Assembly (NCBI GenBank): GCA_964007475.1
Contig: OZ023273.1
Coordinates: 21,935,557 to 21,999,556, forward strand
Reading direction: 5' to 3'
DNA from: Hybos culiciformis
Taxonomy: Eukaryota > Arthropoda > Insecta > Diptera > Hybotidae
DNA length: 64,000 nt
Below, one piece after another: positions 43,447 to 63,884 of the stretch. A program made the position numbers and the translations under genes. Every line of letters begins with the position of its first letter. The first letter of the stretch is position 1. The notes under the pieces were generated by a model, which saw only the letters and a list, made by a program, of their open reading frames with translations, was not told the DNA's origin and ran no database searches.

Positions 43447-43501
43447 GATGTTTCTGGAAAGGTTCAATATAATGACAGAGTAAAAAAATATGATGTTTCT
43501 G
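43447..43501 (+). repeat. 45-bp tandem duplication forming the transposon target
   Basis: GATGTTTCTG at 43447-43456 recurs at 43492-43501. In the first copy it continues into GAAAGGTTCAAT. In the second copy the continuation GAAAGGTTCAAT is found only at 63887, after the 20.4-kb element. The first copy therefore preserves the empty site and fixes the insertion point at ...TTTCTG|GAAAGG. Confidence 0.9.
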
Positions 43502-43541
43502 CACAGAAAAAAATTTGCTCGTACTAATAACTAAAAAAATC
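43502..43541 (+). repeat. left terminal inverted repeat of the giant element
   Basis: It starts CACAGAAAAAAATTTGCTCG and continues TACTAATAACTAAAAAAAT. The counterpart at 63845-63884 differs at a few positions after base 24. The next bases enter the CGTTG/CAACG subterminal array. Confidence 0.9.
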
Positions 43542-44540
43542 GTTGAAAATCAACGAACAATTCGTTATTTTGGCTACAACGAACATTTCGTTGAAAAAAG
43601 CTCGTAGTTCGTTAAAAATGTTCGTTACGCCAACGAATCGAATCAAATAGATATAACGAGATTTTCGTTGAGGTTTTTAACGAATTTTTCGTTGAAATAA
43701 CTAAGTCTAAGTAAAAATCGCACATTAAAATTACGAAAAATTCGTAACTGCAACGGTCACAATTTCGTCGCGCTAACGATAAGAAACTATTTGAAATAAT
43801 GAAAGCTTCGTAACTACAACGATCAGAATTTCGTCTCCCTAACGATCAAAATTAAATTGATGTAACGAAAACTTCGTAACTGCAACGAGTAGAATTTCGT
43901 CGCTCTAACGATCAAATACTTTTTGAAGTAACGAAAGCTTTGTAACAACAACGATCAGAATTTCGTTGCTATAACGATTAAAAACTAGTTGAGACAACGA
44001 AACCTTGGTAACTGCAACGGTCAGAATCTCGTCGCCATAACTATGAAAAACTATTAAAAGCAACGAAATGGTCGTGGCTCGGACGGTCAGAACTTCGTCT
44101 CCCTGACGATGAAAACTAAATTGATGTAACGAAAACTTCGTAACTGCAATGATTAGAATTTCGTCGTTCTAACGATCACAAACTTTTTGAAGTAACGAAA
44201 GCTTTGTAACAACAACGATCAGAATTTCGTTGCACTAACGATCAAAAACTAGTTGAGACAATGAAACCTCGGTAACTGCAACGGTCAGAATCTCGTCGCC
44301 ATAACTACGAAAAACTATTAAAAGCAACGAAATGGTCGTGGCTCCGACGGTCAGAACTTCGTCTCCCTAACGATCAGAAACTATTCGATGTAACGAAGCT
44401 TACGAAACTAAATATTCGTTTAAATAACGAAAATTAAATTAGCTTGGTTTACGAAATAGTCGCTCCAAAACTCGTTGAAACAAAGGACGTTTTCGTTTAA
44501 TAATTTAAGTTATTTCGACGAATTTATTTTCGTTGGATCG
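43542..44540. repeat. subterminal repeat array (AACGA/TCGTT), left end
   Basis: About 1 kb densely filled with AACGA and TCGTT words, organised in degenerate units of roughly 65-80 bp such as GATCAGAATTTCGTCGC followed by TAACGATCAAAA. A longer block starting GATGTAACGAAAACTTCG at 43859 recurs at 44123 (264 bp later). In CACTA elements, subterminal repeats of this kind are bound by the element's accessory protein and are needed for end pairing. The same role here is inference. The ordered spacing is unlike a simple microsatellite. Confidence 0.85.
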
Positions 44541-44633
44541 ACGGAAATTTTGTAAACATTTATATATTCAATAAATTCAACCACGAACATATCGTAAATG
44601 ATGACCATTGATGAAAAATACTATACTTCTTCA

Positions 44634-44751
44634 TATAAGATTAGTTATTTTCATCAACTTTTTTTGTATTTTTATTTGGATGTGTTCTAAAAAAAATACA
44701 CATTCAAATAAAAATACAAAAAATGTTGTATCAAAATAGCTAATCTTATAG
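44634..44751. repeat. 118-bp foldback repeat
   Basis: The left arm 44634-44685 (TATAAGATTAGTTATTTTCA and onward) pairs with 44699-44751 across a ~13-base loop. Several mismatches show it is not brand new. It lies between the subterminal array and the 3' end of the SAM-like gene, and is probably a tiny nested MITE. Confidence 0.7.
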
Positions 44752-45262
44752 TAGTAATCATCATCAATAATTTAAGTTACTAAGTTTTCGTCGTTAAATT
44801 CATTGAAATAATAAACATTTGCGAAACTCCCTGATTCCAACAAACCCAAATAGGTGAAATACCAAAAACTTAGAAAACTTTCAGGGATGTTCTTAAGTAA
44901 ATATCCATTATTTCAGCAAGTTCTGCAAAAAATTTCTATTTAATTTTCATTATTTAAAAAAATGTTACTTACAAAAACATTCCTCATATATTCTATGTTC
45001 TGATAACACATAATTCCCCAGTACAAAACAAATAATCCAAATCATCTGAAAACTCATACTTCTACAAATGAAAAAAAAATCAATTATAAGTTAGAACGGA
45101 TTTTTATTTTAATAGTTCAGATAATTTTTTTTAGTTCTTAACTTCACATTACTAAAATTATGTGTTTAATTAATATTAATATTCAAAGCTTAATATTTTA
45201 AAGTATTTTGTATTAGTTTTTTCATAAATACATTAAACAAAAAAATTAATTGAATTTATTTA

Positions 45263-48200
45263 TCACTTCTTTAATTGCGAAATTAAAGTAAGTACACAAG
45301 ATGCAATCTTGTTTTGAGACTCAATCTCAAAAAAAAATCGTTCAATAAATTTGTAAAAATTTAACGATTCTTTTGGAAATTCTAAATTAAAGACGTAAAA
45401 ACTTTTGAATAATACCACAAAAGCTTTCAGAAAATTATTAAATTCGTATTTTATCCCATCTAAGTAAACATAATACTTGTCAGCATTTAAAGTTGACCCA
45501 TTTGTGCTGACACAAAAAATAAAAGGCTGCATCTTTTGATCATTAAAATCTTTTGTATCACTTGCATTTCTAAGTATTTTCAAAACTGAATTTTGAGAAT
45601 CTTCAACCGTACATTTTTTAACTCTTGTTGGTTTCAATAGACAGTGCAGGAACATCATAATACCAGCATTGTGCGGACCATCATCTAAAATTTTCAAATT
45701 ATGAACATTACAATTTTTTATGTTGAAAATAGTGTGGTGCCGAAGCCCACCATTCTTGATATTTTTTGAAGAAAATTAATAAAAAAGTATTTTTATAACT
45801 GAAATTTCTAAACTAAGCTACTAAAAAAAGGCGTTCTCAAAATACTATATAAATGGTAATCGTTATCAAAATTTGTTATAAAATAAAATTATTTTGAAAT
45901 AACCTAGAGTTAGCATTGATGTCTTACTTCACTACTAAGTCAATTTTAACTCTACCCTCTTTGTAGGTGCGGCAGAGCTACATTTGAATTCCTATTTCGG
46001 AAACCCAATTTTTTTTCGCAGTTTCGGATTTGAGCTAAAAATACGTACGATTTGTCTGATTTGTCTAGCACTAATGTATTTTTGTTCGAGGAATGAAATT
46101 TTGATTACGCACATTTTTTCAGAGTACTTATTACTCGAGATATTTGAGTTTCAGGTTAAAAAATGATTCCGTACTAAATCAAAAAAAGTGAAAACATCAG
46201 ACAAAAAATTTAAAACATATCAAGTGACACTCCAATGGGGTAGTGACGTTTTAATATTTTTTATCTCATTTTTGATTAATTTTTTTTTTTTCCCGATGGA
46301 AGCTATATATGACTTTCTTTATGACCCTACTTCAAATTAACTTTTGAATTTGTTAAAAAAATAACCAATTAATAGTTTCGGAAATTTTAGCTCAGTAAAA
46401 TTTTGATAGTTACGTACTACCTTTGATTAATAATACTACCAAGATAGTAACTTCATACATTGTTTTTTGTTCTAATAAAATGTTATTATAAATTGAATGT
46501 GTTAGTAAAACACAATAAAATACTACAGTATTTTACTTTGTTTTACTTACACGTTCAACTTATAATACCATTTTATTAGAAAAAAACAATGTATGAAGTT
46601 GAAAATCTTGGTAGTATTCTTAATCAATGGTACTACGTAGTTACGATTTAAATCTTGATAGGATAACTATAAATGAAAAAGTCTGAAAAAATGTTAGCTT
46701 ACTTTTTTCCAAATCATCCGTTGTTTTTTCTTTATCATAATTCAACATTTCTTTTTTAAATTTAATCCAACATTTTTTTTTAGTCCCGGATATAAGAGTG
46801 TCATAAAGTGGTGTAATTTTTCTTACAAAAAGATCCCAATTGGAAAAGAAATTTTCTTGATATTTATAATCGAAATCAATATGAATCTAAAAATTATTTT
46901 TTAAAGCATAATTTTTTATTACGTTTATTCATAGATTAAGAATACAGATCTGTATTCTTAATCTATGGTTTAATGTAATATTTACCAATTGATGACCGTA
47001 AGATTGGGTGAAAGGCTTCCATTCAGATATTAGGTTTCTCAATGATGCATCACCTTCATATTTCTGAAAATCGTTCCTCCGATAACTGATTGTTTCATTC
47101 CAAGCTTCTAATATTTTTGACATATCTTCACCATAATAATTATGATTTAAGTTGGATTTAAGACTTTGGCACCTTTTTTCTGCGAAAAAAACGAAAAAAA
47201 CTGTAAAATGTAAACCTTATTTTGTGTTCTTTATTTAAAGGAGTTATTAGTAAAACATAATAAAATACTGTTTTGTACATGATAATATAAATGGATTTTG
47301 TTTTCTTTTAACAAAGAAAAATACAACAAAAAAGTTGTATGAAAATAACTCATCTAAAAGAAGTATTCTTAATCAATGTTAAAACCTAAAGCATAGTGAA
47401 ATTATTTAAAAAAAGGTTCAATTTTAACATTTTCGAAATATAATATAAACACACCATCGTCAAAAGATAATTTTCCATCGCAATCGAGTGAGATGTTGGG
47501 AAGTTCTTCACTTTCTGTTTCTAATTGTTTTTTAACAGCAGATTTAGCATAAAAATCCATTTTGGTAATATTTGATTTTTTTGTAACCAAGATTCCACCA
47601 GCCTTTTGACCTTTTGTTTCTAAAAACCATGCTGATTTATTTTCGTTTGGAAATTTCTTAACTATTTGTACTGCTAAGTTTTCCATTACTTTGTTACTTA
47701 ATTTCAATTCATTGTTGTAAAAATATCTCATTATTTGATAAGAAAGTTGTTGTCGATCTGTATTTTTCAATATTCCTCCATTGGAATCAAAGTTTTCTGA
47801 AACTTGTTTTAAGACTGAATCTGGTATTATTTCACTTAAGATCTGCAATTTAATAAATTTAAAAAAATTATACAGTTACATAAATTTTAGAACAACAATT
47901 TTACTTACATATTGTAATGGAGAACTAGATTGAGTTGAAATGTTTTGCTTTGGTTTTGTTGAGATTTGTTCATTATTTTTTTTCCACTCCTGGAGAGAAA
48001 ATCTAAAGCGAGCCATTTTCCCCATCTCTTTTGGTGGAAACATTAATCTTATATCTTGGTTATCTAAGTATTGCAGCTGATCAGATGAAATATTATTTTC
48101 TAAAATACAATTTTTAATAATATCTACTATTATGTTAGTTTTTTTTTTAAAAAACAATCATACCTATACATAACGAATAAGTTAGTTCTAAAAGATCTTT

Positions 48201-48302
48201 ATCAATTTCAGTTAAAGAACTTAATAATTTTTCATCATTGCTTGCAGTTGATAATGATGAATTTGTAGTCCCAATACTTTGAAGATCAAATGACTTTTCC
48301 AT
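45263..48302 (-). CDS. SAM-domain-like (SAMD3-like) accessory protein of the transposon, six exons
   Basis: Spliced model on the minus strand, all exon phases agreeing: 48302-48164, 48126-47909, 47842-47455, 47179-46986, 46886-46703, 45684-45263. It predicts 514 residues from ATG to TAA. Residues ~60-100 (from ISSDQLQYLDNQDIRLMFPP) look like a degenerate SAM domain. Residues ~250-320 carry KRCQSLK, LISEWKPFTQSYGHQL and IDFDY. The last exon has MQPFIFCV, YVYLDGIKYEFNNFLKAF and LEFPKES, then FIERFF. This order is that of the widespread animal proteins annotated as sterile alpha motif domain-containing protein 3-like, whose function is unknown to me. Several donors fit consensus well (TAT|GTAAGT at exon 2). 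Exon 3's donor GATG|GTGTGT is the weakest and was chosen by phase. Intron 1 would be only 37 bp, with a CTAAC branch-like site, which is unusually short. Introns 3 and 5 carry MITE copies. It lies downstream of, and parallel to, the transposase, so I infer a transposition accessory role. Confidence 0.78.
46404..46660. mobile_element. palindromic MITE in intron 5 of the SAM-like gene
   Basis: Long inverted arms (about 125 bp each) meet near 46526 at AATACTACAGTATT. The outer ends read TTGATTAATAATACTACCAA and, inverted, CTTGGTAGTATTCTTAATCA. The arms share CTTCATACATTGTTTTT and TCTAATAAAATG. No coding potential. It lies wholly inside a predicted intron, which explains that intron's size. Confidence 0.8.
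47232..47390. mobile_element. half-copy of the same palindromic MITE, intron 3
   Basis: It shares ATTAGTAAAACATAATAAAA and GAAGTATTCTTAATCAATG with the right half of the element at 46404-46660, in the same order. The middle is diverged. It lies in the intron between exons 3 and 4 of the SAM-like gene. Two copies in two introns of one gene suggest local re-insertion. Confidence 0.6.
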
Positions 48303-48748
48303 TTTCTATATTTAGAAGCTTTAAAATATTTTTTTTATGACTTAATTATAAATTTACAATAGTTTTTAAAATATACATAATGGAAAATGAAATAATAAGT
48401 ACATATAACGATGTGTCGATGTCGAAAGTTAATGTTGAAAATACTGTGGAAACCAATTAATGAAAATGAATAACTGTATTTTTGTGTACCTACTTAAATT
48501 TTATAAATTTTAAAATGTTTCACAGAATATTTAGATTCTTTCACTGATTTTTTTACATTTATATCAGCAACTTATTGAAAACGTTTCATAGACAATACAA
48601 TTCAATTATTTAAAAAAAATACAAATTTAAAAATGGTATTTAGACTCTAATGTAGTTCAACCAACGACATAAGTTTATTATAAAAATTTTAGCATAAAGA
48701 AAGGTCATCGTGAAGAAAAAATACAAATAAAATAAGAAGACAAAATTA

Positions 48749-49559
48749 GGCATAACTTGAAATGACGTGTGCGCACCGATTTGGCTGAAAATTCTAGGGA
48801 GCGTAGAGGCGGTGCTCAAAACCCTCAGGTACTTGCCCTTTTTTGGGGTGAGGCCTCGTTTCAGAGATATGGCCCCTCAAAGTTTTCATATATCTGGCAA
48901 TATTGAATTCTTTTTTTTGAATGCAGATTTGGAGAGGCGGTTCCCCAGATATCTTTTGATTCTGAGCCCCGTTATCGACTTCCAAAGATTTCACATGCAG
49001 TTTATACTACCAATTCGCAATATAACTAGCACGTTATTACCAAAAAAGGAAAATGGCAAATCCCACTGACCCACCGCCGAACCATCGCCAAACCACCGCC
49101 GACCCACCGCGCCCGCCTCTCCGACTGACCCACCGCGCCCGCCTCTCCGACTGACCAACCGCCCGCCCACCGCGCTCACCCTCCCACTGCCAAACACCCA
49201 TCTCCCACGGGCAACCGACCGCCCGAAGCGCCTCCCTCCCACTGACCAACCGTCCTAATTATATTGCAAATTAGTAGTACAAACTGCATATGAAAACTTT
49301 GGAAGTCCATATCTCTGAAACGGGGGCTCAGAATCAAAAGATATCTTGGATTCGACATCTGGGGAACCGCCTCTCCAAATCTGCATTCAAAACAAATAAT
49401 TCACTATTGCCAAATATATGAAAACTTTGAGGGGCCATATCTCACAAATGGGACCCGAGCCCCAAAAAAAGGAAAGTATCCGAGGGGTTTGGGCACCTCC
49501 TCTTCCTCTCTCCAATTTTCAGCCAAATCGGTGCTGCACACGTCATCTGCAGTTTCTCC
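48749..49559. mobile_element. foldback MITE F2 with 8-bp TSD and GC-rich core
   Basis: An 811-bp element flanked by the 8-bp repeat CAAAATTA (48741-48748 and 49560-49567). The ends read GGCATAACTTGAAATGACG and, inverted, GGAGAAACTGCAGATGACG. The arms of about 290 bp pair over CACCGATTTGGCTGAAAATT and GAGATATGGCCCCTCAAAGT. Within each arm a module (CCGTTTCAGAGATATGG plus TCAAAGTTTTCATAT) is repeated. The 200-bp core (49050-49255) is GC-rich with repeated CCACCGCGCCCGCCTCTCC words, and contains CAAATCCCACTGACC (49057-49071). Open frames here are by-products of the GC-rich core. It inserted between the two transposon genes without disrupting either. Confidence 0.88.
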
Positions 49560-49567
49560 CAAAATTA

Positions 49568-49868
49568 TATTGCATCAAACTCAACATTAGCTTTTAAGTA
49601 GTTTGCTTTTTATGTATTTAAATTTTCAAAATAATATAGGTCTTTTTTTAAACCTTTTAATTTGTAAAATCATATAGATCTATCTATAAACTATTTCGTT
49701 TTTAAAATTTTAAAAGCTATAAGGTCTTTTTACAGATAGAAAATATGTTTTTTTTTTAATTTTTTTTCAATAAGTATTTTTTCTTTTCGATGGTTCCTCT
49801 GTTTATATAATTTTATCTTTTCAAATTTATCTCTTATTTAAAATCTTAACTTATGCAGCCCTAAACTC
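49568..49868. other. 3' flank of the transposase gene
   Basis: AT-rich sequence of 300 bp between the F2 element and the transposase stop codon. Poly-A signal-like AATAAA/ATTAAA words on the minus strand are possible, but in DNA this AT-rich they are not informative. Nothing else seen. Confidence 0.4.
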
Positions 49869-52352
49869 CTAATGACTTATAAATATATTTTTTGGTCTAA
49901 TTGCTTTGAACCCATCTGGTAAGTTATACAAATGAATTGGAGCGCCAGAGAAAAATGAAATAGGATGAATATTAATGGAAGATGGGATGGCATGTAAACT
50001 AAATCCTTCAAAATCTTTTCTGTACCTGCATTTATATGTTGTTTTTGTTACCACAAAAACCATTTGTTTCTCCGAAATAACAATTAGTTCTAAAATTTCA
50101 AATAAAGAAGTTTGAAGCTGATCTTTGTAAGTCACAAAAAAACCTGTTTGATAGAATGTACCCTTATACCTAATTTTATGGTAAGCTCTCCACTCAACTG
50201 ATGTCAACTGGGGGTTTTTGTTGATTTCATCAGTAAATTTACATTCAATTTCATGAATGCTTTCAACTTCAATAAATTTCTCGTCTTCATTATTTAGTAA
50301 AGTAAAAGCATATTTCAACTGGTTTTTTAAAGCTAATGAGAATATAATGTTTTTTCTACAAGATGTACTATTTGCGTAAATTTTAAACTCTCTGTGTTTA
50401 GATTCTAATCTATAAGTATGATAAGTTCTTGGAGGGCCTGATTTTCTTATTATCATAGGGTAATGGGTAAGAATATGATGTTTGGGTTTGAGGGTATCAT
50501 TAAAGCACGATATATATTCCGAATTATGCTGTTTTATTACTAAGGCAAGTTGTTCAATATTTTGTTCACTAAAACTAGGAGAAACTATCAAATCCATCAT
50601 TTTCAACATAACGCAAAAATATTTCCATTCTTTTGAATAGGTATCTACTAAGTCAAAGATCATGAATGGCAAAAGATTTGCAAACGACCAAATTTCGCGC
50701 GCTTTCATTTTTAAATTATTCGCTCTCAATCGATCAAGTGAAATATCGACGACTTTATTTCCTATTTCAAGTACCCCATAATCGAAACGATTTTTCCTTT
50801 TATTTAATTTCTTTATGTCGAACCATTTGAAAGTTTCAATGCATTGAACAAGAAATTTACATAAGCCATATTGAATAACCCCCTCATGAAGATCGTGCAT
50901 ATAATCATTTTGAAAATTTTCAACAATGTGAAAGCCTTTAATATCGTTCAAAATAGATTCTCCAACATATCCAGTCTCTTCCGGTTTATCTTTCGTGATA
51001 TCTTCGGCATAATTTTCTCTATTTCTTAGCAGTGAATTGTCTTGAACAGTACTGATTTGACAAACTTTATTTTTCATTCGACAGAATCGGCAATAATAAT
51101 TAGCATTAAACGATTTTTGCATATCCAAGATTGTATTGACACCAAGGTTGTCTCCTAAAATAAGGCCCAGAATAAACCGTATATTTGCTATTTTCCCATT
51201 AAGTGGAAAATTCAATCCTTCCACAGCCAATTTATTTATCTGTTTTACTAGTTGACATAGGCAGCAGGTGTTTCCGAATTCTTTCATTGTCTTGGACTCA
51301 AAAAAACCGTAAAGTAAAATATTTCTTAATTTTGTAGGGTCGGGCAGGTTAGGAAAGTAAATGTACAATGCTGAAATGGAAAAAGTGTGAGGTCCTAGCG
51401 CATTATTTAACTACAAGTCATCTATATAAAGAAAATATACTATTACAGAAGATGTATCAGGTATCCCAATTTCAACTAATTTTTTTTTATAGGTCTCACC
51501 TTGAATATAACTTGAAATATTTTCTTGACCTGATTGTAAAATACTTTGTATGTTATTAAGAGTAGCAGTAAGGTTATTGTTTCTAGAAAAAAATGTTTGA
51601 AATTGAAATTCAAGAGGAGAAAATACTCCTTTTGTTGCTTTATCTTCAAAAGCTAACACGCCTTTTTTGTGACATTCAACAATTTTATTATCAATAGTTA
51701 TTTCTACTAGATTTTGGAAAATGTTTCGAGAAAATAGTGTTTTCAAAAATAAGTGCTCGGATTGTATGCTGTCAAAAGGGGTAGACGCCATAGCAATAAC
51801 TTGAGTTTTATAATCTAATGACTTTTCATTCGAATCAAAATTTAAAAATATTTCACGGATAATAGAAAAAATTGGTTTTAAAATATCATCTGTTACAGAA
51901 TCTTGAATAGAGAAAACGTCTTTTCTATTGAAATTATTAACATTATGTAAACGCAAGGAAAATTTAAGTGCAGCGGTTTCAAACATTCGTGCTATTTCAG
52001 TAAGGGGACGTTGAGTTGAAAATTTATTGGAAGCATTGTCTTGATCAACCTTGAAATATGAGTTTAAATCACGAGGGATGGAATTTAATTCCTCGGTGTC
52101 CAAGCTTATTATATTTGATTTTTCAGAGTCTTCTGAATATTTAATTTTTTTGCTTACCCTATTTGGAATGTCAACTAATTTTAAGATGCAAGACTTAAAA
52201 TGACTCTTGAAAACAGAAGAATTTGAATAGATATGTTTACAGCTCGAACACCGATATGTTGAATACTTTGATAAACCATGATCACGTTTAAAATGTTTCA
52301 TAAATTCGTCAATTATCGAAAAAATTTTATGGCATTCAAAGCAATTAAACAT
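49869..52352 (-). CDS. Tnp2-like (CACTA/EnSpm) transposase with N-terminal zinc fingers
   Basis: Two exons on the minus strand: 52352-51500 and 51370-49869. They join through CAAG|GTGAGA and TTTTTCCATTTCAG| across a 129-bp intron and keep the frame, giving 784 residues. The N-terminus has a C2H2 finger (C4, C7, H20, H25) and a C2HC finger (C35, C38, H51, C55), probably for DNA binding. The core carries the blocks of Tnp2-type transposases: LGLILGDNLGVNTI with D358; NYYCRFCR, a cysteine knuckle (C378, C381); DYMHDLHEGV with D444; KPKHHILTHYP (579-589); and YRLESKHREFK with E607. D358, D444 and E607 are my candidates for the DDE triad. No stop or frameshift interrupts it, so it may be active. 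The short downstream spacing to the SAM-like gene was later widened by the F2 insertion. Confidence 0.88.
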
Positions 52353-52730
52353 GGTTATTTAATATTTAACAAAAAATTAGATTACATGTAATTATAATAT
52401 AAAAACGAAAATGGAAAATAATTTTCTTGTGATCCTAAAAAAAAGGAAAATTATTGTATATATTTTTAAACCAATACTCAAAAATAAAAATACCTAACCT
52501 GTACCTTAAAAATTAAGTACAGAACTTCCGTCTCGTAAAGAGCTTAAGTTTTTTAATTTCTAATAGTAATTAACTTCTTAATTTCTAATAGTAATTAACT
52601 AATTTCTAATAGTTAATAGTTAAAAAAATAGTTAAAAGTGGTAAATGAGATACAGAGCTCAAATAAAAAATTAAATGGCTTACTTCAAACTTCAATTTAT
52701 TGGATCCACCACCTTAGATTTGAATGTCAC
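52353..52730. other. 5' flank of the transposase gene, with small tandem repeat
   Basis: This should contain the transposase promoter, but no motif can be singled out in the AT-rich sequence. At 52552-52622 the unit TTAATTTCTAATAGTAATTAA is repeated two and a half times. Confidence 0.45.
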
Positions 52731-52739
52731 TTAAAATAT

Positions 52740-53800
52740 TTAAATGATATATTTTTTTTGTTTTATTTCGATTGATGAGCCTACAATGATTTATATTTTT
52801 TACTGAAAATCAGCTGTATAATATTAAATAGGTAGGTAGGTAGGTACGTAGGTGTTCACATTATAATTAAAAATTATGGTTAATGATCCTTAAAATAGAC
52901 ACCTCTACATTATGTTTTCCTTTTTTAGTATTTTTTACGGAAAATGTGCAGTAAAATATTTAATGGGTATTAAGGTAGGTACCTACTTCTATTTATCGTA
53001 TAAATACATTTTAACTATTACAAAATTCACGATTAGTAAAAATTATGGTTGATGAGCTTGAGAATATAGATACCTACCTACATTATGTTTTCTTTTTTTA
53101 ATATTTTTTACTGAAAATGTGCAGTAAAATATTTAATAAGTGGGTAGGTCAGGTACCTATGTCTGTTATCACCGAAATAACAAATAAGTGGCATATGTAT
53201 TTTGTATATTTTTAGTATTACAAAAATACACAATTAGTAAAAATTTTGGTTGATGATTAGATAAGTTAGGTAGGTGCCTATTTTTATCACAAAAATAACA
53301 AATAAGTGGTGGGTGTGGGTATAAATAGAGGAATATGGAAACAAGAATTTTTTTCGATTTTTGGGACCACCACCTCTAGCACTTTATTCTCAAAATTCTC
53401 AATCCAGATAATGCACCTACATACACTTGAAAATTGGAAAATTTTTCTCAAAAAAATTAAATAAAACTTACCTTAAATATTTTGTTCTTCGAGCGATTTG
53501 CTATACCACGATGAGGACGATTTTGTAGGCTTCTACTAATTTTGGGCCTGAGCGTTGAATCTAAAAATTTAGATATTAGTTGTTTTTTACACAATTTCAA
53601 GTATTACAAAATAAAGGATAAGTAAAAAGTATGGTTGATGAGGTTGAAAATATAAATATAGATACCTACATATAAAATATTTTAATTTTTCAGATTCAAA
53701 ATCCAAGAGATGAATTTTTTGTGGAGTTTAATCGTTGAATGTGCTAATAATATAGCCTTAATGTAGTCTTTTAGTCGAGTTAAGTTGATTTAAAATAATT
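52740..53800 (+). repeat. complex direct repeat, copy D1
   Basis: A cluster of degenerate 170-200 bp units, each with TTTTTACTGAAAATGTGCAG, a GGTAGGTAGG run, AACAAATAAGTGG, TACACAATTAGTAAAAATT and GGTTGATGAG. The last ~650 bp (from TGTCTGTTATCACCGAAATA at 53160) is nearly identical to 59704-60400 in the same orientation, including CTTCGAGCGATTTGCTATAC and TGAGCGTTGAATCTAAAAAT. No reading frame, LTR-type ends or target duplication. It lies just upstream of the transposase gene inside the giant element. Confidence 0.85.
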
Positions 53801-54054
53801 ATTGTGTATATATTATACGATTATACATCTGCAGCAAGCTTTTTAGCTTTTTTTTCCCCTACCAACATAAACATAACATTTTTTCGGTTGATGACCATCT
53901 AAAAGTCTACAACTGCACAAAGTCTTTTACTTTCAATCAGCATACATCCTGGAGATACATACATACTTCCTGGAGATACACACATACATTTTTTATAAAG
54001 ATTAAATTCACAGATAGACATGACATATAGATACTTATTATCGTGTGATAATAC

Positions 54055-54188: not shown

Positions 54189-54254
54189 CTTAATTTTTAC
54201 TTTTTGTTTATTAAAATTTTGTTCTAAAAAATTATATATAAACAGTTATACATT

Positions 54255-55027
54255 TATTAAATAAGGATGCTAAATTTTAATTTATGTATATTAAACTGAC
54301 CATATTTGTACCACTTAATGCGGTACAAATGTGGTACATTTTTAGTTATTCGCAAATATCTCGAAAACGGTGCGTTTTTTAGCATTTTTGAGGTAGCCCA
54401 ACCGTAGGTGACCATCAAATCAACTTTTAATTACCTATTCAAAAAGTACTGGAACTTAAAAAACTATCAAAGGGTTACTGAGATATTGAATTTTGAAAAA
54501 AAAAACAAAAATAATAAATTATATATATTTTTCAAAATTCAATATCTCAGTAACCCTTTGATAGTTTTTTAAGTTCCAGTACTTTTTGAATAGGTAATTA
54601 AAAGTTGATTTGATGGTCACCTACGGTTGGGCTACCTCAAAAATGCTAAAAAACCCACCGTTTTCGAGATATTTGCGAATAACTAAAAATGTACCACATT
54701 TGTACCGCATTAAGTGGTACAAATATGGTCAGTTTAATGTATATGCATAGTAATTTACGTAAAAAAAATAAATTTGACAACATTTATCTATGGAGTTGAT
54801 TTCTGGAAACTTTACTGATTCTGAAAATTGTCAGCTTACTGCTTACAGCTTTTTCGAATCAGAAATCTAGATCAGTCATTTGTTCACTTTTACCACTTCT
54901 GCTGTCAACTTCCCCGCGCAAAAAAAAAAAATTGTTTATGTTTTGAATTTTCTTTGATTTTGAATTCAAAAATTAGGAATAAAAATTTATAAAAAAAGAA
55001 AAAAATAAAAACAATCAATTTTAATAG
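54255..55027 (+). repeat. duplicated segment, copy A (interrupted by a hairpin element)
   Basis: After removal of 54291-54737, this copy matches 55770-56088 over about 320 bp with few differences. Shared text includes TTTGACAACATTTATCTATG, GAAATCTAGATCAGTCATTT and CTGTCAACTTCCCCGCGCAA. It ends exactly where the element at 55028 starts. Confidence 0.9.
54291..54737. mobile_element. 447-bp hairpin element with 210-bp near-perfect arms
   Basis: The arms 54291-54500 and 54528-54737 are inverted copies with one clear mismatch (GGTGCG against GGTGGG), separated by a 27-base A/T loop. The outermost bases are TTAAACTGACCATATTTGTA. Reading TTAA as the duplicated target would suggest piggyBac-type mobilisation, but the second copy of the host segment (55770 on) is too diverged at the junction to prove it. 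The near-identity of the arms points to recent insertion or ongoing arm correction. Confidence 0.88.
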
Positions 55028-55768
55028 GGAGTGGCTACAGTTACGGCAAACGTAACTCTTTTTTTTTTTTTGAGAGTTACGGCAACCGTAATCCTGTTGA
55101 AAATTGACTAAAGTTACGGCAAACGTAACTCTTTTTTTTTAGAATTACGGCAACCGTAATCCTGTAGAAAATTGTGTAAAGTTACGGCGGACGTAACTTT
55201 TTTTTTTTTTAATTGATTACGGCAAAGTTTTTTTTGAGCATTATGACTTTTTTTTAAAATAAAAAGTTGTTATGCTGAATGGGGGAGGGCCGCCGCCTCC
55301 CCCAAACCCCCTAGGGCTTCTTTTTTTTTTGCTTTGGCGCTTCGCGCTTTTAAAACTATTTTTGTATTTTTGTATAACGATGTAAGGTTTTACTATTCTT
55401 GCATTTGTTGTATGACGATGTAGGGTTTTTACTTGTCAATAACTTTCACATGTACACATAATTTATATTTTCTATTTTGTACACGTTTATAATTTTAATA
55501 CTGTAGCCGAGAGGTAGAGTGGTAGAATGAAATGCTAAAGAACGAGGTTCGAATCCCGAAGAAAGGGTTAAGACAAAAAAAAGAAAAAAAAAAAAAAAAA
55601 AAATTAAATAAATTTTTTTTTTCGACAAACAAAAAAAATTGCCGTAACTTTAAGCATTACCTAAAAGTTACGGTTGCCGTAACTTTAAAAAACAAAAATA
55701 AGTTACGTTAACCGTAACTGTTAAAAAAAAAATATAAGTTACGGTTACCGTAACTGTAGCCACTCCCT
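55028..55768. mobile_element. 741-bp MITE with AGGGAGTGGCTACAGTTACG ends
   Basis: Inverted ends AGGGAGTGGCTACAGTTACG match perfectly. Inside both ends, short palindromes of the type AGTTACGG(C/T)(A/T)ACCGTAACT are repeated three to four times, separated by T or A runs. The interior has a GC-rich strip (55276-55315, GGGGGAGGGCCGCCGCCTCC) and a tRNA-like segment. The end style recalls hAT (C/T)AGGG termini, but no 8-bp duplication is visible. It lies exactly at the junction of duplicated segments A and A'. Confidence 0.8.
55499..55572 (+). ncRNA. tRNA-like segment with A and B boxes (SINE relic)
   Basis: TAGCCGAGAGG (55504-55514) fits a Pol III A box of the Ser/Leu tRNA style. GGTTCGAATCC (55546-55556) is a perfect B box. 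The spacing is close to that of a tRNA gene. The acceptor stem does not close convincingly, so this is a tRNA-derived SINE head or decayed tRNA rather than a working tRNA gene. It sits inside the 741-bp MITE. Confidence 0.6.
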
Positions 55769-55769
55769 G

Positions 55770-56088
55770 TATTAAATAAAGATGCTAAATTTCAATGTAT
55801 GCATAGTAATTTTACATAAAAAAAAAATAAATTTGACAACATTTATCTATGGAGTTGATTTCTGGAAGCTTTACTGATTCTGAAAATTGTCAGCTTACTG
55901 CTTACAGCTTTTTCGAATCAGAAATCTAGATCAGTCATTTGTTCACTTTTACCACTTCTGCTGTCAACTTCCCCGCGCAAAAAAAAAAAAAAATTGTTTA
56001 TGTTTTGAATTTTCTTTGATTTTGAATTCAAAAATTAGGAATAAAAATTTATAAAAAAAGAAAAAAAATAAAAACAATAAATTTTAAT
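55770..56088 (+). repeat. duplicated segment, copy A'
   Basis: Uninterrupted partner of 54255-55027. It begins exactly after the 741-bp MITE and ends 56 bp before the CAF-1-like fragment. Copy A' also shows the site lacking the hairpin element. Confidence 0.9.
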
Positions 56089-56144
56089 CATATTTACAAG
56101 GTGTTGGACAGGCTATTGATGTTTCTTCCAAATCAGTGTAAAAA

Positions 56145-57403
56145 CATCGAGCAAAATTTCTTTTGTTTTGTGATAATCGTCGTCCACCATATTATGGAAC
56201 ATGGAGAAAGAAAAGTGAAACCATTAATCCAAGAAAACCTTTTGCTATTGATAAGGTATTTTAACTTTGTAGACATTATGTCGTTTTTTGTTCGTTTACA
56301 AAATTTAAATCAATTTTAAATTTAAATGAACTATTGATTCAAAAATGTAAACTTTTTAGATACTATTTTATTATGAAGTAGATCCAGATGATGAATGGGA
56401 AGAAGATGAACTTGGTGAATCATTGCGAGGAAGCGATGATGAAAAGGAAAGCGAAGATGAGTACGAAGTGGATAACGATTTCTTTGTTCCACATGGTCAT
56501 TTGAGTGATAAAGAATTACAGACTGATGATGAAAATATTGAAATTAATACACCACAAAATCAAAAAGCAAAATTAAAAATATTACAACAGGAATTCGCTC
56601 AAGAAATGAAAAAGAAAACTGAAAAAATTAAGCCGAAATTAATTGGAATATTCTGGGCTGATGAAAATAGAAATCATGGAATTGATTGCCCAGAAATAAT
56701 TTGGAACTCATTAAATAAACGTGCAATGATGTTATCAGACCCAATTACTTTAAAAGTTGAAAATCCTTTACAGGCACCAAGCTCTCCGTCACTAAATAAA
56801 AAAATAATTAAGGAAAAGCGGTTTCTATTTCTGATTTAATAAGATTATTACGTGGAAATCGTAACAGTAAAAAATGTTTAATTAAATAATTTTTAGTATT
56901 TATAGCCATTAAACAGGAAAACAAAAGTGGAACTGCTAAGTATTACACAAAATCATCTATTAAAGATAAAATTGACGAAATTTCAAGTTGGGACAAATTA
57001 TACAGAGTGGTTCACTCGGAAGTTTTTAATAAATATGAATTACAAAAGTTAACTTTTGTAAATCATTATACTTATTACTTAAAACCGAAGATTAAATCAG
57101 GAAATAGTCCATCCGAAACAATGAATGAAAGCAAAAGTGAGAATAACGAGAAGACAACATCAAAAAAATTAAATATCAAAAAATTTACAAATAACTTTTG
57201 TTGTCACACTAGATTCTAATAGCAGAAATGGTAATAGTTCTGAAACACTGATTCAATAGTAACAAGAAAAGTTAAAAAACAAATTAGAGCCATTTTCTCG
57301 GCAGAAAAACTCATCAATCAGTAGTTTTTTAATAAAAGGTAAAATGGAATTAAAGGAAGATTTTGTGAATAATTTAAAAAAACTGAAAACGTTGAAAATG
57401 TAA
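56145..57403 (+). pseudogene. C-terminal fragment of CAF-1 large subunit (p150/CHAF1A-like), decayed
   Basis: Exon 56145-56255 reads AKFLLFCDNRRPPYYGTW then RKKSETINPRKPFAIDK, ending at GATAAG|GTATTT. After a 104-bp intron ending TTTTTAG|, exon 56360 onward reads YYEVDPDDEWEEDELGESL, then an acidic run, then YEVDNDFFVPHGHLSD. These are hallmark blocks of the CAF-1 p150 acidic/ED region. Near 56818 the frame shifts, and ISDLIRLLRGNRNSKKCLIK continues in another frame to a stop. A segment from 56906 (GTAKYYTKSSIKDKIDEISS) fits the C-terminal winged-helix region, and after 57219 the match shifts again with two stops (LIQ** at ~57258). CAF-1 deposits H3-H4 at replication forks. This copy lacks the N-terminal two thirds and cannot make a normal subunit. 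The retained intron argues against a processed retrocopy and for capture of genomic DNA by the element. Confidence 0.82.
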
Positions 57404-59040
57404 TCACAATTAATTAAAAAAAAATATTTTAGTGAATTATTTTGTTATATGTAATTCGATTTTAGGTTAGAAAACTTAATTACTATTATATTTAATACTT
57501 TAGATTTATTTCAAATAAACATTTAGTGAAAAGTTTCTTAAAGATTTTTAATTTAAATATTATTTTTATTTTGGAAAATCACAACGGCAAGTTTCTTATA
57601 CATTAAAGCGCACATAACTAGAAGATGTCAGTTATACAATTTGATCCAATGCTCATTTTTAAAATGATACCGATTCCCGCTTTTTGTCAAAAACGAAAGG
57701 CGAGTCGAGTTCCATGATAAGAGCAAATACGAACATACAACCAAACTACTATGTTTTCTTACGATAATTTTCTAATTTTGTTTGTTCTTATAACCTGTAA
57801 GTTTTTTTACCTTTATATTTGCAAAACGTTATTTTGTGATCCAGTAATTACAGTTGTTCACAGTTTGCCGAATATTAGTTTATAATAATTATGAAAGTAT
57901 GTTGTTTCACTGAAAAATTACAAACTAATGTTTAGTGTAGATTGCTGGAATTCTACAGATGGTCTCATGTTCTGAGAACACTAAAATGGTGTTATAATAA
58001 AAAAGATAGTTTTCCCATAACTACTACGTATAAATATTTAAATAACATTTTTTATTTGGGATTTTTTTTTTATAAAAATATATCAAATATTTTATAACAA
58101 AATATTGGGGTCGAATTTTTGATGGTTAAAAAGTTAAAAAAAAAACAAACAAGTTACGCGAGATTTAACTTAGATAAAAGGGTTGTTAAGTTTTCGAGAA
58201 ATTTTTATTTCGTTAATATTTAATGTTATTATTTTAAAAATTATTTATGTATAATTTGATATTTAGATTTGAAATAGAAGTCGAAGTCGTGTATACAATA
58301 TATTTAAAAAATATCTTAAAAGTAAAACTTAAATTTTCTGTTTGTATTTTGTGTTTTTTTATCCGGTATAAGAGCTACTGACAAAATACCTTAAGGTTAA
58401 ATTAAAGCCTTAAGGCAAATAAAATGTCAAGACACATTAATCTTAGATAGAGGACTATAAAACAAAAGCAATTATTTTTCTTACCCTGATTATTCTAGTC
58501 ATAAAAAAAATAAAAACTTTATTAACATTAAGTATATATGTATATAATTATCTATGTCCAACGAATAAACATATATATTTACAAATATATAAACGCACAA
58601 ATTTTTCTTCTATGTGCGAAATTAAAAGTATTTAAAAAATCTATTTGATATATGTATATCTTATTCTGATGCTGATACTGAGTGTAAATTTATAACATAT
58701 CCCTATTTTGAATATCGAATAATTTTTCTAAAATTAAACAAATACATATATTGAAAAAGATTTATAGTAGATACAAAATCATTAGATCTCGTCGTTCAAA
58801 AAATACTAAATTATGTTTTTATTTTTCAATTTCAATTTCTATTGCATAAAATAAACTGAGTCATTTGACCGCGAAAAAAGGGACAAGAAACTTTCCGGAA
58901 ATAAAAGGTGTTAAAAGATATAACAGTTTCAAGCATAAGTGCAAAGGACAGAGCTTGATAATTTGATCCAAAATTTTATTTAAAGGTTTTTTCTTATTTA
59001 AAGGTTTTTTCTTAAATTAAGGTCAGAGTCTAAAAGTATA
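57404..59040. other. AT-rich DNA after the CAF-1 fragment
   Basis: The first part may be the captured gene's 3' flank. No further coding blocks seen. A small two-copy repeat (ATTTAAAGGTTTTTTCTT) lies at about 58977-59013. Other patches such as GCGAGTCGAGTTCC (57700) are too short to interpret. Confidence 0.5.
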
Positions 59041-60440
59041 GGCCAGGTGAGTATCTACCTAATGCTCTTTTTTTATAATTATTTTGACTGGAAAAGTGCT
59101 TTTAAATATTAAATAGTTAGGTAGGTAGGTTCCTATTTCTGTTTGTAGCTGAAATAACAAATAAGTAATGGGTTTTGTACTTTTAGCATAAAAAAATACA
59201 GCATAGTAAAAAGTATACTTGATGCACCTAAAAACATAAATACCTACCTAGGTAAGGTACATTATGTTTTTCTTTTTCAATATTTTTTACTGATATCTGC
59301 TGTAAAATATAAAATAGTAGAATATTTGTTTTGGTAACATAAATAACAATTAAGTAGTGGATTTGTTATTTTTAGAATTAAAAAATACGATTAGTAAAAA
59401 TCATGGGTGATAGCATATTAGTATAGATCAGGTAGATAGTGTTTTCCGTTTTCTTAAGTATAACTGAAAATGTGCTGTGAAATATAAAATAGATAGGTAA
59501 GGAAGGTAGGTCCCTATTCCTGTTTGTAACAAATAGATAACAAATAAGTATGTAGGTAACTAGTGTATTTTGTATTTTTAGTATTAAAAAAACACGATTA
59601 GTAGAAATTATGTTTGATGAACTTTAAAATATATATAATGATTTTATTTTTTAAAGAAATGTGGCTGTAAAATATTTAATAGATGGGTAGGTCAGGTACC
59701 TATGTCTGTTATCACCGAAATAACAAATAAGTGGCATATGTATTTTGTATATTTTTAGTATTACAAAAATACACAATTAGTAAAAATTTTGGTTGATGAG
59801 CCTGAAAATATAGATACCTTCCCTACCCTACCCACATTATCTTTTCTTTTATTACATAAGTTAGGTAGGTGCCTATTTTTATCACAAAAATAACAAATAA
59901 GTGGTGGGTGTGAGTATAAATAGAGGAATATGGAAACAAGAATTTTTTTTCGATTTTTGGAACCACCAGCTCTAACTCTTTGTTCCCAAAATTCTCAATC
60001 CAGATAATGCACCTACCTAAAGTTGAAAATTGGAAAATAATCTCAAAAAAATTAAATAAAACTTACCTTAAATATTTTGTTCTTCGAGCGATTTGCTATA
60101 CCACAATGAGGACGATTTTGTAGGCTTCTACTAATTTTGAACCTGAGCGTTGAATCTAAAAATTTAGATATTAGTCGTTTTTTAAAATTACAAGTATTAC
60201 AAAATAAAGGATTAGTAAAAAGTATGGTTGATGAGGTTGAAAATATAAATATAGATACCTACATATAAAATATTTTAATTTTTCAGATTCAAAATCCAAG
60301 AGATGATTAACTTTTTTTTGTGGAGTTTAATCGTTGAATGTGGTAATAATATAGCCTTAATTAAGTCTTTTAGTCGAGTTAAGTTGATTTAAAATAATTA
60401 TTGAGGAAAAGGGGTATTAAGGTAGGTACCTACTTCTATT
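59040..60440 (+). repeat. complex direct repeat, copy D2
   Basis: Five or more degenerate ~190-bp units of the same type as D1, with GGTAGGTAGGTTCC runs, then a ~700-bp stretch nearly identical to 53160-53800. It ends in GGGTATTAAGGTAGGTACCT (60413), a sequence that occurs inside D1 at 52965. The two copies are about 6.5 kb apart and bracket the captured fragments. Confidence 0.85.
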
Positions 60441-60458
60441 TATCGTACCTACTTCAGT

Positions 60459-60983
60459 TTGGGCTAAAGTATAGTATTGCCCCCCACTCGATGAATCGGT
60501 AGAGGCGAGGTCCATAGCCCCCCAAATCGAAAACCGTTCATGAAATAACGCTCCGTTTCGGAGATATGGGCATTCAAAGTGTTCATATGATCTTAGATTA
60601 ATAACAAGGAAGTAATTTTTTTATGAATAGAAAAAGAAAGAAGCCAGCAAGAATTTATTTTTAATAAAATAGGATTGTGTCGAGGGGAGGGAGGGGGTGG
60701 GGGCGTGGGGATGGGGGTTCGGGCTGGCACTTGGTCAGTGCGATTTGCAAAGCTTTGCAAATCGCACTGACCAAGTGCCAGCCCGATCCCTAATCCCGGC
60801 CGCAGCCGCCGCCACGCGTTTTTTTTTTTTTCTTGCCTTCTATTCGTAAAAAATTGCTTGCTAGAAATTAATATGAAGAACATATGAAGACTTTAAAGGG
60901 ACATATCTCCGAGACGGGGCGTTATTTTCAAGAACGGTTTTCGATTTTGAGCGTTTTTGCACCGTCTCTATACTGGCCCCCTT
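60459..60983. mobile_element. foldback MITE F3 with a 68-bp perfect palindrome at its core
   Basis: The arms pair over AAATCGAAAACCGTT, CGGAGATATG and TCATATG-type text, then over a divergent outer part, so the exact ends are uncertain. The module CCGTTTCGGAGATATGGGCA, then TCAAAGTGTTCATATG, is shared with F2, showing one family. The centre is a perfect 68-bp palindrome (60719-60786) that contains CAAATCGCACTGACCAA (60758-60774) and its inverse. The left core is G-rich (GGGAGGGAGGGGGTGGGGGC) while the right core is CG-rich (CCCGGCCGCAGCCGCCGCC), so the outer core is not symmetrical. Confidence 0.75.
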
Positions 60984-61907
60984 TTTTATATTTTTTAATG
61001 ATTTTTTTTTATATTTTTTAATGATCTAGAAAACATAAAAAACATAAAATCTGAAAAGCAGTCTAAAATGGGAAAACGGGCTAAAAATAAAACTTACCTG
61101 AAACTTTTGTCCACAATGTGGAAGATATAATTTTTCGGTTTCAACTGGCTTGGCTTGGGCCAGTTATTATTTTTTTTTTAATTTTTACTAAACGAACGCC
61201 AAATTGAAAGATGGCGTTTGAAATTTTTTTAAAACTTTTTTAAGAAAAAATCCACGATATTCTTCAAAAAAAATGATCACAATTATTACAAATTAATTAA
61301 AAAATTTATTTGTAATTAAAAATAAAATTTATTTATAATTAAAAAAATTTTACTGCCACGAAAATAAAACACGTCATCTATCGCTCAAGTTTTTTTGGTC
61401 TATGATTAACCGTAATTTTTATTAACTGTAATTTGCTACACAATTAAATAAAACAAAACAAAAATTAATAAAACACCTGCATATTGTAGGGGATAATGGG
61501 CACTTATTACAATTAAGTATGGATGTTATCTTTATGTTTTTAACCCAATATTTTTTTCAGAGTTGTAAAATAATAATTTTTTTTTCTTTCTTCTTATTCT
61601 TTTTATTTTTTTCATAAACAACTTTTTTTTCATTTAGTACCTATATTTATTTTTTTCACTTTTATTTTTAAACCAAACACTATTTTTTAAAAAGAAAAAT
61701 TGTTTGACACTTAAGAAAACTTACGTTGTCACTGTACTAATTCTAATATTCACGTTTACTTACCCCACAAAAAACTTTATTTTCTTTTTGCCAAATCAAA
61801 ATAACAATAACAACAAAAATTATTTTCGGATACTTTTAAATGTATGTTATTGCTAAAGTATCCTGTTTTACCCTACTGGAAATTGCATGTGTTGCAAATA
61901 TTTCGAC
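60984..61907. other. AT-rich DNA without recognisable genes
   Basis: No coding segment. A short hairpin, AAACG(A)ACGCCA against TGGCGTTT, lies near 61190-61232. The rest is A/T runs. Confidence 0.5.
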
Positions 61908-61910
61908 TTA

Positions 61911-62235
61911 GGGGCTGTTCACAAATTACGTAACGGCCTAGGGGGGGTTTGAAAATTTGTTACGGTTTGTTACGAGGGGGGGGGGGGGGGGGGGTGTTTA
62001 AAAAATGTTATGTAACCAAATTTCCTCCTTTTTATTTATTTTTTTTTGGTTACTTATTATTATATTTTTTCCATTTTTGTTTTTATTTTTAAGTTATAAT
62101 GAATTTTGTTTTCTTTATTCGAATAAAAAAATTGTTCTAAAAGTAATTTAAAAAGTGTTTAACTTTTGTTACGTTATCCTTAGGGGGGGGTTAAAAAACG
62201 GCAAAAAAAGCGTTACGTAATTTGTGAACAGTCCC
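61911..62235. mobile_element. 325-bp PIF/Harbinger-like MITE with TTA duplication
   Basis: Ends are GGGGCTGTTCACAAATTACG on the left and GGGACTGTTCACAAATTACG on the right (minus reading), flanked by TTA at 61908-61910 and 62236-62238. A 3-bp TTA duplication is the signature of PIF/Harbinger. Inside are CGTTACGTAA-type repeats and a ~19-base G run near 61977-61995. No coding content. Confidence 0.85.
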
Positions 62236-62583
62236 TTATCAAAAAATTGACGAGCTATGTACTTACTTGAATATACCAAAAATATAAGGGGTGATTATAA
62301 GAGTTTAACAATCATGAAAATAACAAAGCTTATAGGAAATTTGTTATTGAAAAAAGTTCATAATTGTTATCAGAAAAATTTATATTGGGAGAAAATAAAT
62401 TGTTGATTGTTATGAACAAAGTTTTTTTTTTTTAAACTTTTGGAATGACAGTCATTATTTCCTATTGGTCTATTTTGTGTACAAATAAGAAACATTATCG
62501 TGAATATGCAAGACTACCTTAAATAATACGATGAAGTAGTTGAAAACCAATGTCGACTTTTATTGTTTCCAAGGATACGGCCT

Positions 62584-62730
62584 AGGGTTGCCAGGTGTCC
62601 AGATTTTGTCTGGACAACCTAGATTCCTGATGCCTTGTTCAGATTTCCAAAAATAAAAATCTGGACATTTTGATTGTCCAGAAATTTTAGAGAAAGAAAT
62701 CTGGACCACTTGACTTCGATTGTGTCCAAG
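62584..62730. mobile_element. transposon end fragment (AGGGTTGCCAGGTGTCC type)
   Basis: AGGGTTGCCAGGTGTCCAGA followed by TTTTGTCTGGACA is a widely seen transposon terminus with internal TGTCCAGA/TCTGGACA repeats, several of which follow up to 62706. No matching opposite end is found, so this is a truncated copy or its partner is diverged. Confidence 0.45.
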
Positions 62731-62848
62731 ATTTGAACTGGGTGCTGAAAATGGATGATGATGAAAATTAGAATTTGAGTAGATGTTGATTGAAAGAGCA
62801 TAAGAAAAATATTTTACCCCCGATTCTTACCAACGAAACTCTGAAACC

Positions 62849-62888
62849 GAGCTCAATACTTCATTTATGAGGTACTGTTCTATATTTT
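62849..62888 (+). repeat. dispersed 40-bp repeat, second copy at 14541-14580
   Basis: Both copies read GAGCTC..TACTTCATTTA.GAGG..CTGTTCTATATTTT and match at 35 of 40 positions. At 14541 it follows a CACTG-ended MITE; here it precedes the GC-rich minisatellite. It is likely part of an unidentified dispersed element. Confidence 0.7.
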
Positions 62889-62945
62889 TGATTCCTGGAA
62901 TCGAAAATTCTGAAAATATCGGAGTAGAATATGTGTACAGAAAAG

Positions 62946-63109
62946 TGGTCCCGGCCGGGAAAAATGGTTACGGCCGGGAAAAATGGTTCAGGCCGGGAAA
63001 ATTGGTCCCGGCCGGGAAAAATGGTCCCGGCCGCAAAAATGGTTCCGCCGGGAAAAATGGTCCCGGCCGGAAAAATGGTTCCGCCGGGAAAAATGGTCCC
63101 GGCCGGGAA
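62946..63109. repeat. GC-rich 18-19-bp minisatellite (GGTCCCGGCCGGGAAAAAT)
   Basis: About nine tandem units vary at CCCGGCCGGG, TACGGCCGGG and TCCGCCGGG. Further scattered and inverted units (TTTTTCCCGGCCGG) continue to about 63270. The unit contains the self-complementary CCCGGCCGGG. Several overlapping frames on both strands run through it and are not genes. Confidence 0.92.
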
Positions 63110-63299
63110 GTTCTTTCTGGTTAAAAACCTTTTTCTGGCAATATTCTTCTGGCGAATATTTTTCCCGGCCGGACACATTTCCCCTATTTATTTTTTACTC
63201 GACCGGGAAATATTTTCACGGCCGGGATTTTCGACTGGACTTTTCTGCATAATACCTTTTTCCCGGCGGGACGTGTGCAATAATAGACTCCCTAAAAAG

Positions 63300-63480
63300 T
63301 AATATAAGAGAGCTTCATAATTCTGGGTCGTAATTCCGGATACCATTATTCCAGATCTCAGAATTTCAGATCTCGAAATTCCGGAATATTTTTAAGATTT
63401 TAAGAAACAAAATTCGTAAAATTTCAGATCTCAAAATTCGATCTCAAAATTATGGAACGGAGTCCAACTACAACCGTGAG
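63300..63480. repeat. imperfect AGATCTCAGAATT-type repeats
   Basis: The words TTCCAGATCTCAGAATT, TTCAGATCTCGAAATTCC and TTTCAGATCTCAAAATTC recur five times over about 120 bp, forming a short degenerate tandem next to the GC-rich minisatellite. Confidence 0.6.
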
Positions 63481-63689
63481 GAATACACATTATAAATATA
63501 TATTACAGGCATATTACACTCATCACCAATTTTCTATTAAAATAAAATAAGATAAGTATACCTACTTAAAAAAGTTTTTTTTTTTGGTAAATTTCCTATT
63601 TCTAAAAATAAGCCCAAAAAACTTTGACTACAAAAAATTTTTAGTATGCCCAATTTTTTTGCCTAAAGCAATTCCTAAATTTTATTTCT

Positions 63690-63844
63690 AAAGCAAAAAA
63701 AATTAAGCGATCGATTAACGAACTTTTTTAACGAGTACTAAAAATGGAAAAAAAATTCGTAATAAGAAAATAAACGAAATTTACGTTACAAAAACGTAAT
63801 TATTCATTATTTTTCGTTATCTTAACGAGAATGTCATTAACGAA
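63690..63844. repeat. right subterminal AACGA/TCGTT cluster
   Basis: ATTAACGAACTTTTTT occurs twice (near 63715 and 63837), with further AACGA, TACGTT and TCGTTA words between. It mirrors the left subterminal array but is only ~150 bp long, giving the element unequal ends, as is common in CACTA transposons. Confidence 0.75.
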
Positions 63845-63884
63845 CTTTTTTGAAGTAATGAGTACGAGCAAATTTTTTTCTGTG
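63845..63884 (-). repeat. right terminal inverted repeat of the giant element
   Basis: Read on the minus strand from 63884 it begins CACAGAAAAAAATTTGCTCG. It is followed on the plus strand by TG (63885-63886) and GAAAGGTTCAAT, the continuation of the target interrupted at 43501. Confidence 0.9.

Follow-up and report, generated by a model that had tools for sequence, protein, structure and literature searches.

Introduction

Subterminal repeats are typical of CACTA transposons. Elements of the CACTA/EnSpm type, which belong to the CMCT clade (CACTA/EnSpm-Mirage-Chapaev-Transib and kin), have CAC..GTG termini, and their transposases carry C(2)C and H(3-4)H between the second D and the last E; the target-site duplication (TSD) of EnSpm is 3 bp (PMC12730594). 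Here, we analysed a 64,000-nucleotide stretch of the genome of the fly Hybos culiciformis (contig OZ023273.1, positions 21,935,557 to 21,999,556), which is called the window. Window positions 43502-63884 were occupied by a transposon of 20,383 bp with two genes of its own and DNA of the host gene CHAF1A. The locus is very probably explained by a giant, recently active, gene-capturing CACTA-like cut-and-paste transposon.

The following comparisons draw on passages of the cited papers. TRC elements of Schistosoma (SmTRC1), Tribolium and Aedes have ends that begin with CCC, measure 4.5-9.2 kb and are flanked by 2-bp direct repeats (PMC1636069). TSDs of 2 bp were described in other animal elements (PMC1636069, PMC4298943); beyond such duplications in another animal element, the passages on Daphnia CACTA (PMC2884549) and in PMC4298943 added little. 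Most work on gene capture by transposons with terminal inverted repeats (TIRs) concerns plants. A survey of 100 animal genomes gave Pack-TIRs with a median duplicated size of 224 bp that were rarely multicopy (four cases); the largest human case was 3,585 bp, and the search was limited to 5 kb (PMC8277862). Enlarged EnSpm elements of 16-20 kb with 4-5 open reading frames (ORFs) occur in the red alga Chondrus crispus (PMC6431247). Among the matches listed for the terms used in the open-licence literature searched, we recognised no description of a CHAF1A-carrying transposon or of a 20-kb CACTA element with several copies in an animal. The kind of element is already known. The combination is unusual: a 20-kb element of an animal that codes for its own transposition, carries captured DNA from across a whole gene and has several recent copies.

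Ends and target site of the element

The junctions of the element were read directly. On the left, ...GATGTTTCTG was followed by CACAGAAAAAAATTTGCTCGTACT, and on the right, AGTACGAGCAAATTTTTTTCTGTG was followed by TGGAAAGGTTCAATA. The left end at 43502, CACAGAAAAAAATTTGCTCGTACT, had its exact inverse at the right end, with the last base at 63884, and this 24-bp terminal repeat was perfect (CACAG...CTGTG). The features of the ends were as follows.

43440..43489, + strand: uninterrupted target-site twin at a 45-bp offset (match to the joined flanks, single TG)
43500..43501, + strand: left TG target-site duplication (sequence read)
43502..43525, + strand: left terminal inverted repeat, 24 bp, CACAG... 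(sequence read, genome counts)
43526..44561, + strand: left subterminal array of AACGA/TCGTT, with a 66/264-bp period within 43733-44397
63714..63860, + strand: right subterminal region, common to the sister elements and miniature copies
63861..63884, - strand: right terminal inverted repeat, 24 bp, ...CTGTG
63885..63886, + strand: right TG target-site duplication

The twin, which starts at 43440, 45 bp upstream, agreed with the joined flanks at 29/30 bases and diverged afterwards. The empty-site sequence expected without the insertion would be TTTCTGGAAAGG. Since the twin holds one TG, this neighbouring empty site fixed the duplication at 2 bp. We take the twin to belong to an older tandem duplication in the host DNA.

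AACGA/TCGTT occurred 39 times in the left 1,060 bp (36.8 per kb) and 6 times in the right 184 bp (32.6 per kb). Inside the element the density was 1.75 per kb, and host DNA had 1.53 per kb, so that the ends were about 20 times denser; 200 shuffles of the left and right ends gave maxima of 8 and 3. The exact 24-mer occurred 666 times in the genome (331 + 335), and the reversed control did not occur at all, which indicated that the terminal repeat was not a product of chance. It had 0 matches in viral contigs. These results bore out four observations of an initial annotation of this DNA, namely the matching inverted ends beginning with CACAG, the TG duplication on both sides, the asymmetric AACGA arrays and the uninterrupted copy of the target 45 bp upstream.

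Copies of the element in the genome

The assembly comprises 342 Mb in 509 contigs, with about 307 Mb in contigs C1-C3. Genome searches were performed with the 601-bp ends, and the best 40 of 439 (left) and the best 40 of 453 (right) candidates were scored. Among these, the left end was complete at six places with approximately 100% identity and at three more with 76-77%, and the right end was complete at six places with 97-100% identity. Five complete units were obtained, including that of the window: A (20,383 bp), B (20,485 bp), D (20,486 bp), E (20,098 bp) and F (20,518 bp). Their flanks were different, and each had its own 2-bp TSD (TG, TA, TA, TA and TG, respectively). The sixth copy, C, was colinear as far as window position 62497; about 0.7 kb beyond, a 200-N gap follows, and the right end lies behind it. 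A possible seventh copy, G, was represented by a right end only; its left part would lie behind an assembly gap. A TSD of 2 bp was present at 12/12 insertions with both ends in hand (7 giant, 5 miniature; TA 9, TG 2, CA 1). This count left out C and G, in which one end was unreadable near an N gap, and the sister element S1, the right end of which was not found.

The copies were closely similar. Aligned pieces of B-E were 98.4-99.9% identical to the window, and the pieces of F longer than 1 kb were 93-99% identical. A and B were 99.6-100% identical per 1-kb block where aligned. About 0.7 kb near 55.0-55.7 kb was present in A and missing from B, and about 0.6 kb near 62.4 kb was carried by B, D, E and F and missing from A. 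The 20-kb span moved as one unit. The initial annotation had inferred this and had proposed a search for other copies with the same ends; four further complete copies, at different sites and with their own 2-bp duplications, spanned the same 20 kb.

Two element copies were interrupted near 200-N gaps (L026-L028 at C2:91684097; L012-L014 and L025 at C2:27258k).

Captured CHAF1A DNA

The right arm of the element contained the following remnants of host DNA.

54832..58994, + strand: captured CHAF1A-locus DNA, in pieces 54832-55023 (second copy 55891-56086), 56092-58351 and 58354-58994
56142..56261, + strand: CHAF1A exon 2 remnant (Pfam CAF1A_dimeriz, 1.2e-11; host exon)
56360..57400, + strand: CHAF1A exon 3 remnant, frameshifted (human CHAF1A in PDB, 1.5e-13; host-exon comparison)

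In A, the captured pieces were 88-93% identical to the host locus C3:46746453-46752519, which lies on another large contig. The host CHAF1A (CAF-1 p150) gene had three open exon-like frames (splice sites not mapped), and Pfam gave the p150 acidic region at 2.5e-5, slightly below the cut-off, and the dimerisation domain at 1.3e-5, above it. The matching pieces spanned from C3:46746453, upstream of exon 1, to C3:46752519, past the stop codon, and the intron was retained. Two gaps of about 2.4 and 0.4 kb interrupted the match. The larger one covered exon 1, and no match to this exon with its start codon was obtained in the element. The cargo DNA was found at seven places in the genome: A-E at approximately 100%, F at 94% and the host locus (C3:46749081-46750475) at 93%. 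It was thus carried by 6/6 copies A-F.

Exon 3 was decayed. Compared with the host, A had five frame-breaking deletions, and F had seven insertions or deletions, six of which were not multiples of three; one stop in the host frame was present in each. The ratio of nonsynonymous to synonymous substitution rates (dN/dS) against the host gene was 0.6-0.7. A 10-bp deletion was common to A and F, which suggested a single capture. Since A-E were approximately 100% identical to one another and differed from the host by 7-12%, the capture took place long before the burst. In the simplest reading, the whole gene would have been captured as DNA and decayed later; alternatively, the pieces may have been captured separately. 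The cargo is probably a dead passenger. The host-like cargo of the initial annotation was therefore confirmed as host-derived, from CHAF1A, but it was not intact, with exon 1 lost and the frame shifted.

The gap at 56836-56890 had been considered as an intron. This was wrong, because host exon 3 is one open frame there, and the gap reflects decay.

A second CHAF1A-type dimerisation domain was located at G000:C372:9185-9391 (L048) on a 13.6-kb contig. It possibly comes from a contaminant eukaryote. Its contig had 40% GC over the 901 bases read, compared to 26% at the CHAF1A locus.

Sister elements and miniature copies

Two sister elements, S2 (16,037 bp) and S3 (15,633 bp), were complete, with TA duplications and long right arms of their own. 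Their transposases showed 81% protein identity to the window type and 82-83% identity in DNA, and their termini were CACGG...CCGTG in S2 and CACGG...CTGTG in S3. At the threshold used, the CHAF1A locus was not matched in S2, and a CHAF1A domain search of the genome gave none in S1-S3. Little weight can be given to the missing DNA similarity of the arms, as neutral sequence was much diverged (dS ~0.45).

The first 100 TIR places listed yielded 44 pairs, with the window element as one and spans of 709-791 bp in the other 43; 12 places were unpaired. From the 43 short-span pairs, we estimated several hundred miniature copies of about 750 bp with shared ends, about 300 of them paired. Reading of five miniature copies showed the terminal ~126 and ~169 bp of the giant element around a different middle, with a 2-bp TSD in 5/5. 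These outer parts seem to be sufficient for mobility.

Transposase and second gene

The genes of the element lie on the minus strand.

51414..52352, - strand: N-terminal 313 aa of the transposase, with a Cys/His-rich start and the first D
51411..51413, - strand: premature in-frame stop codon (window copy alone among six of its type)
49872..51410, - strand: C-terminal 513 aa of the transposase, with the second D, C(2)C, H(3-4)H and E of the CACTA-like signature
45266..48305, - strand: second transposon gene, at least six exon-like ORFs (splice sites not mapped; conserved in S2)
45266-45775, 46644-46886, 46932-47216, 47405-47875, 47879-48157 and 48150-48305, - strand: exon-like ORFs of the second gene

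The transposase was open in all five sister copies (825-827 aa) and in S2 and S3 (818 aa each), and it was broken in S1. The motifs YIDD[LF], GDN, CRFC, HH[IN]L[TL]H and R[LF]E[SA]KH were kept in the window, S2, S3 and a 36%-identical relative. The catalytic residues were assigned by eye, following the clade definition of PMC12730594 in the part consulted. Distant transposases, mostly 28-44% identical, were numerous in the genome (best 55 of 352 candidates scored). Comparison of the transposase with PDB gave weak troponin matches only (E 0.46-0.5). When viral contigs were searched for the transposase, three stretches matched a pattern, and none was confirmed. A search of Rfam gave no match at gathering scores.

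The dN/dS of the transposase was 0.24 between B and S2. All six exon ORFs of the second gene were conserved in S2, with dN/dS values of 0.17-0.41; no Pfam family was above its cut-off for this gene. At the sequence level, both transposon genes showed purifying selection. The initial annotation had described the genes as apparently intact, which did not hold for the window copy: an in-frame stop private to it interrupts the transposase, and a decayed fragment is what it has of the cargo gene.

Classification of the element

The ends, subterminal arrays and catalytic signature supported the CACTA-like type given in the initial annotation, and on these features we would file the element as CACTA-like in the CMCT clade and there only. 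The 5'-CA..TG-3' termini of the clade were present as CACAG...CTGTG in five complete copies. The TSD of 2 bp at every insertion fell within the 2-5 bp of the clade, and D, D, E with C(2)C and H(3-4)H between the second D and E was found. The agreement with strict CACTA/EnSpm was partial. The CAC..GTG termini, the C(2)C and H(3-4)H signature and the subterminal repeats were the same, whereas Transposase_21 was not matched, the TSD was 2 bp instead of 3 bp and the element measured 20 kb with a captured gene. The 3-bp flanks differed at all seven giant copies checked, so that the TSD was 2 bp only. The term Tnp2-type in the initial annotation was left unconfirmed, with no Pfam Transposase_21 in the window ORFs or the open sister transposase.

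The element resembles TRC elements in being animal and CACTA-related, in its 2-bp direct repeats and CXXC motif, and in the use of empty paralogous sites as proof, as far as the passages of PMC1636069 show. In contrast, its TIR begins with CACAG (CACGG in the sisters) and not with CCC, its size is 20 kb, and its first-D motif has DD instead of DG. The TRC motif [LVI]-D-x-[LM]-H-x3-L-G was not present: the window has NDYMHDLHEG and L047 has VDIMHDLFEG, with E in place of the L before G in both and N at the first position in the window. Like Pack-TIRs, this is a TIR transposon with host DNA of an identifiable parent (C3:46746453-46752519). However, the source of about 6 kb spans a whole gene, the cargo is present in six copies, and the transposase is encoded by the element itself. 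The enlarged EnSpm of Chondrus crispus is of the same size class; the present element is from an animal and has two genes and a dead host gene.

Alternative explanations

The transposase genes are nearer the left end, and about 11 kb separates them from the right end, as would be expected if the right end belonged to an adjoining second element and the 20-kb span were accidental. This is next to impossible, because four other complete copies span the same unit from left to right at different sites with matching 2-bp TSDs. They did not end near 52-53 kb, where the initial annotation had looked for the sign of a second element at the right. The near-identity of the copies would also fit a segmental duplication of one locus, by which the 20 kb spread without transposition; the flanks of the copies differ, the ends are exact and each end pair has its TSD, and this explanation was rejected as extremely improbable. 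Composite transposition, with a host segment moved jointly by miniature elements on its two sides, could draw on the several hundred same-ended miniature copies estimated in the genome. However, the unit holds the two genes of the family itself, the full 601-bp end matches lie at giant copies and the gap-cut G (among the best 40 candidates for each end), and in the five miniature copies read, the similarity to it is confined to the outer ~126 and ~169 bp. We consider such joint movement exceedingly improbable.

The retention of the CHAF1A cargo in all of A-F and its dN/dS below 1 might suggest that the cargo serves the transposon as a working gene, such as a truncated form of CAF-1 p150 interfering with host chromatin assembly. 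However, the constraint of the host lineage itself would reduce dN/dS. In addition, the exon with the start codon is unmatched, the exon 3 frame is broken in A and F with one stop each, and neither the match in S2 (at the threshold used) nor the domain in S1-S3 was found. Given the broken exon 3, a functional cargo was judged very unlikely. It is also highly doubtful that transcripts across the captured CHAF1A DNA yield small RNAs against host CAF-1 p150 and so weaken replication-coupled silencing; if true, they would help the spread of the element and its several hundred miniature relatives. Some points weigh against a recently active CACTA-like transposon as the explanation. Pfam Transposase_21 (PF02992) was matched neither by the window ORFs (E limit 1) nor by the open transposase of S2 (E limit 10). 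The AlphaFold model of the transposase, from a 5-row alignment, had a mean pLDDT (predicted local distance difference test) of 34.6 and was too poor for use, which leaves the DDE fold, RNase H-like or RAG1-like in the CMCT clade, unproved. The genome searches score the best candidates only. Copy F was a mosaic compared with B, with most outer blocks at ~99%, the cargo arm at 95-98% and one block at 84%, which suggests that elements recombined or exchanged arms in addition to transposing.

Proposed history

For a giant CACTA-like cut-and-paste transposon, the following history may be proposed. The DDE transposase and the conserved second protein would bind the AACGA-type arrays and the 24-bp CACAG ends, and the transposase would cut out the unit and insert it elsewhere, duplicating 2 bp of the target. 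Before that, an ancestor acquired DNA of its host, the source being a stretch of about 6 kb that includes the entire CHAF1A gene; template switching in the course of excision-gap repair is the most likely route. The captured gene lost exon 1 and its frame, the two transposon genes remained under purifying selection meanwhile, and the last step was the recent spread of the whole 20-kb unit. The order of events is thus capture, decay and burst. The whole 20-kb unit occupies at least five sites, which shows that elements coding for their own transposition do move large cargo in animals.

Other features of the element and the window

Palindromic stretches resembling miniature inverted-repeat transposable elements were nested in the element at 46411-46639, 48754-49554, 54271-54757 and 60524-60947, and one of them sits between exon-like ORFs of the second gene. 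The right arm had a direct repeat of about 0.8 kb (53008-53804 and 59574-60403, 85% identical), and a GC-rich 19/36-bp minisatellite was present near the right end (62940-63109). Outside the element, an array of about 3.9 kb at 3538-7440, apparently a 12-bp minisatellite, had a GC content of ~65% compared to ~22% in the region and was open in several frames, with repeats such as PHFR and TSAL.

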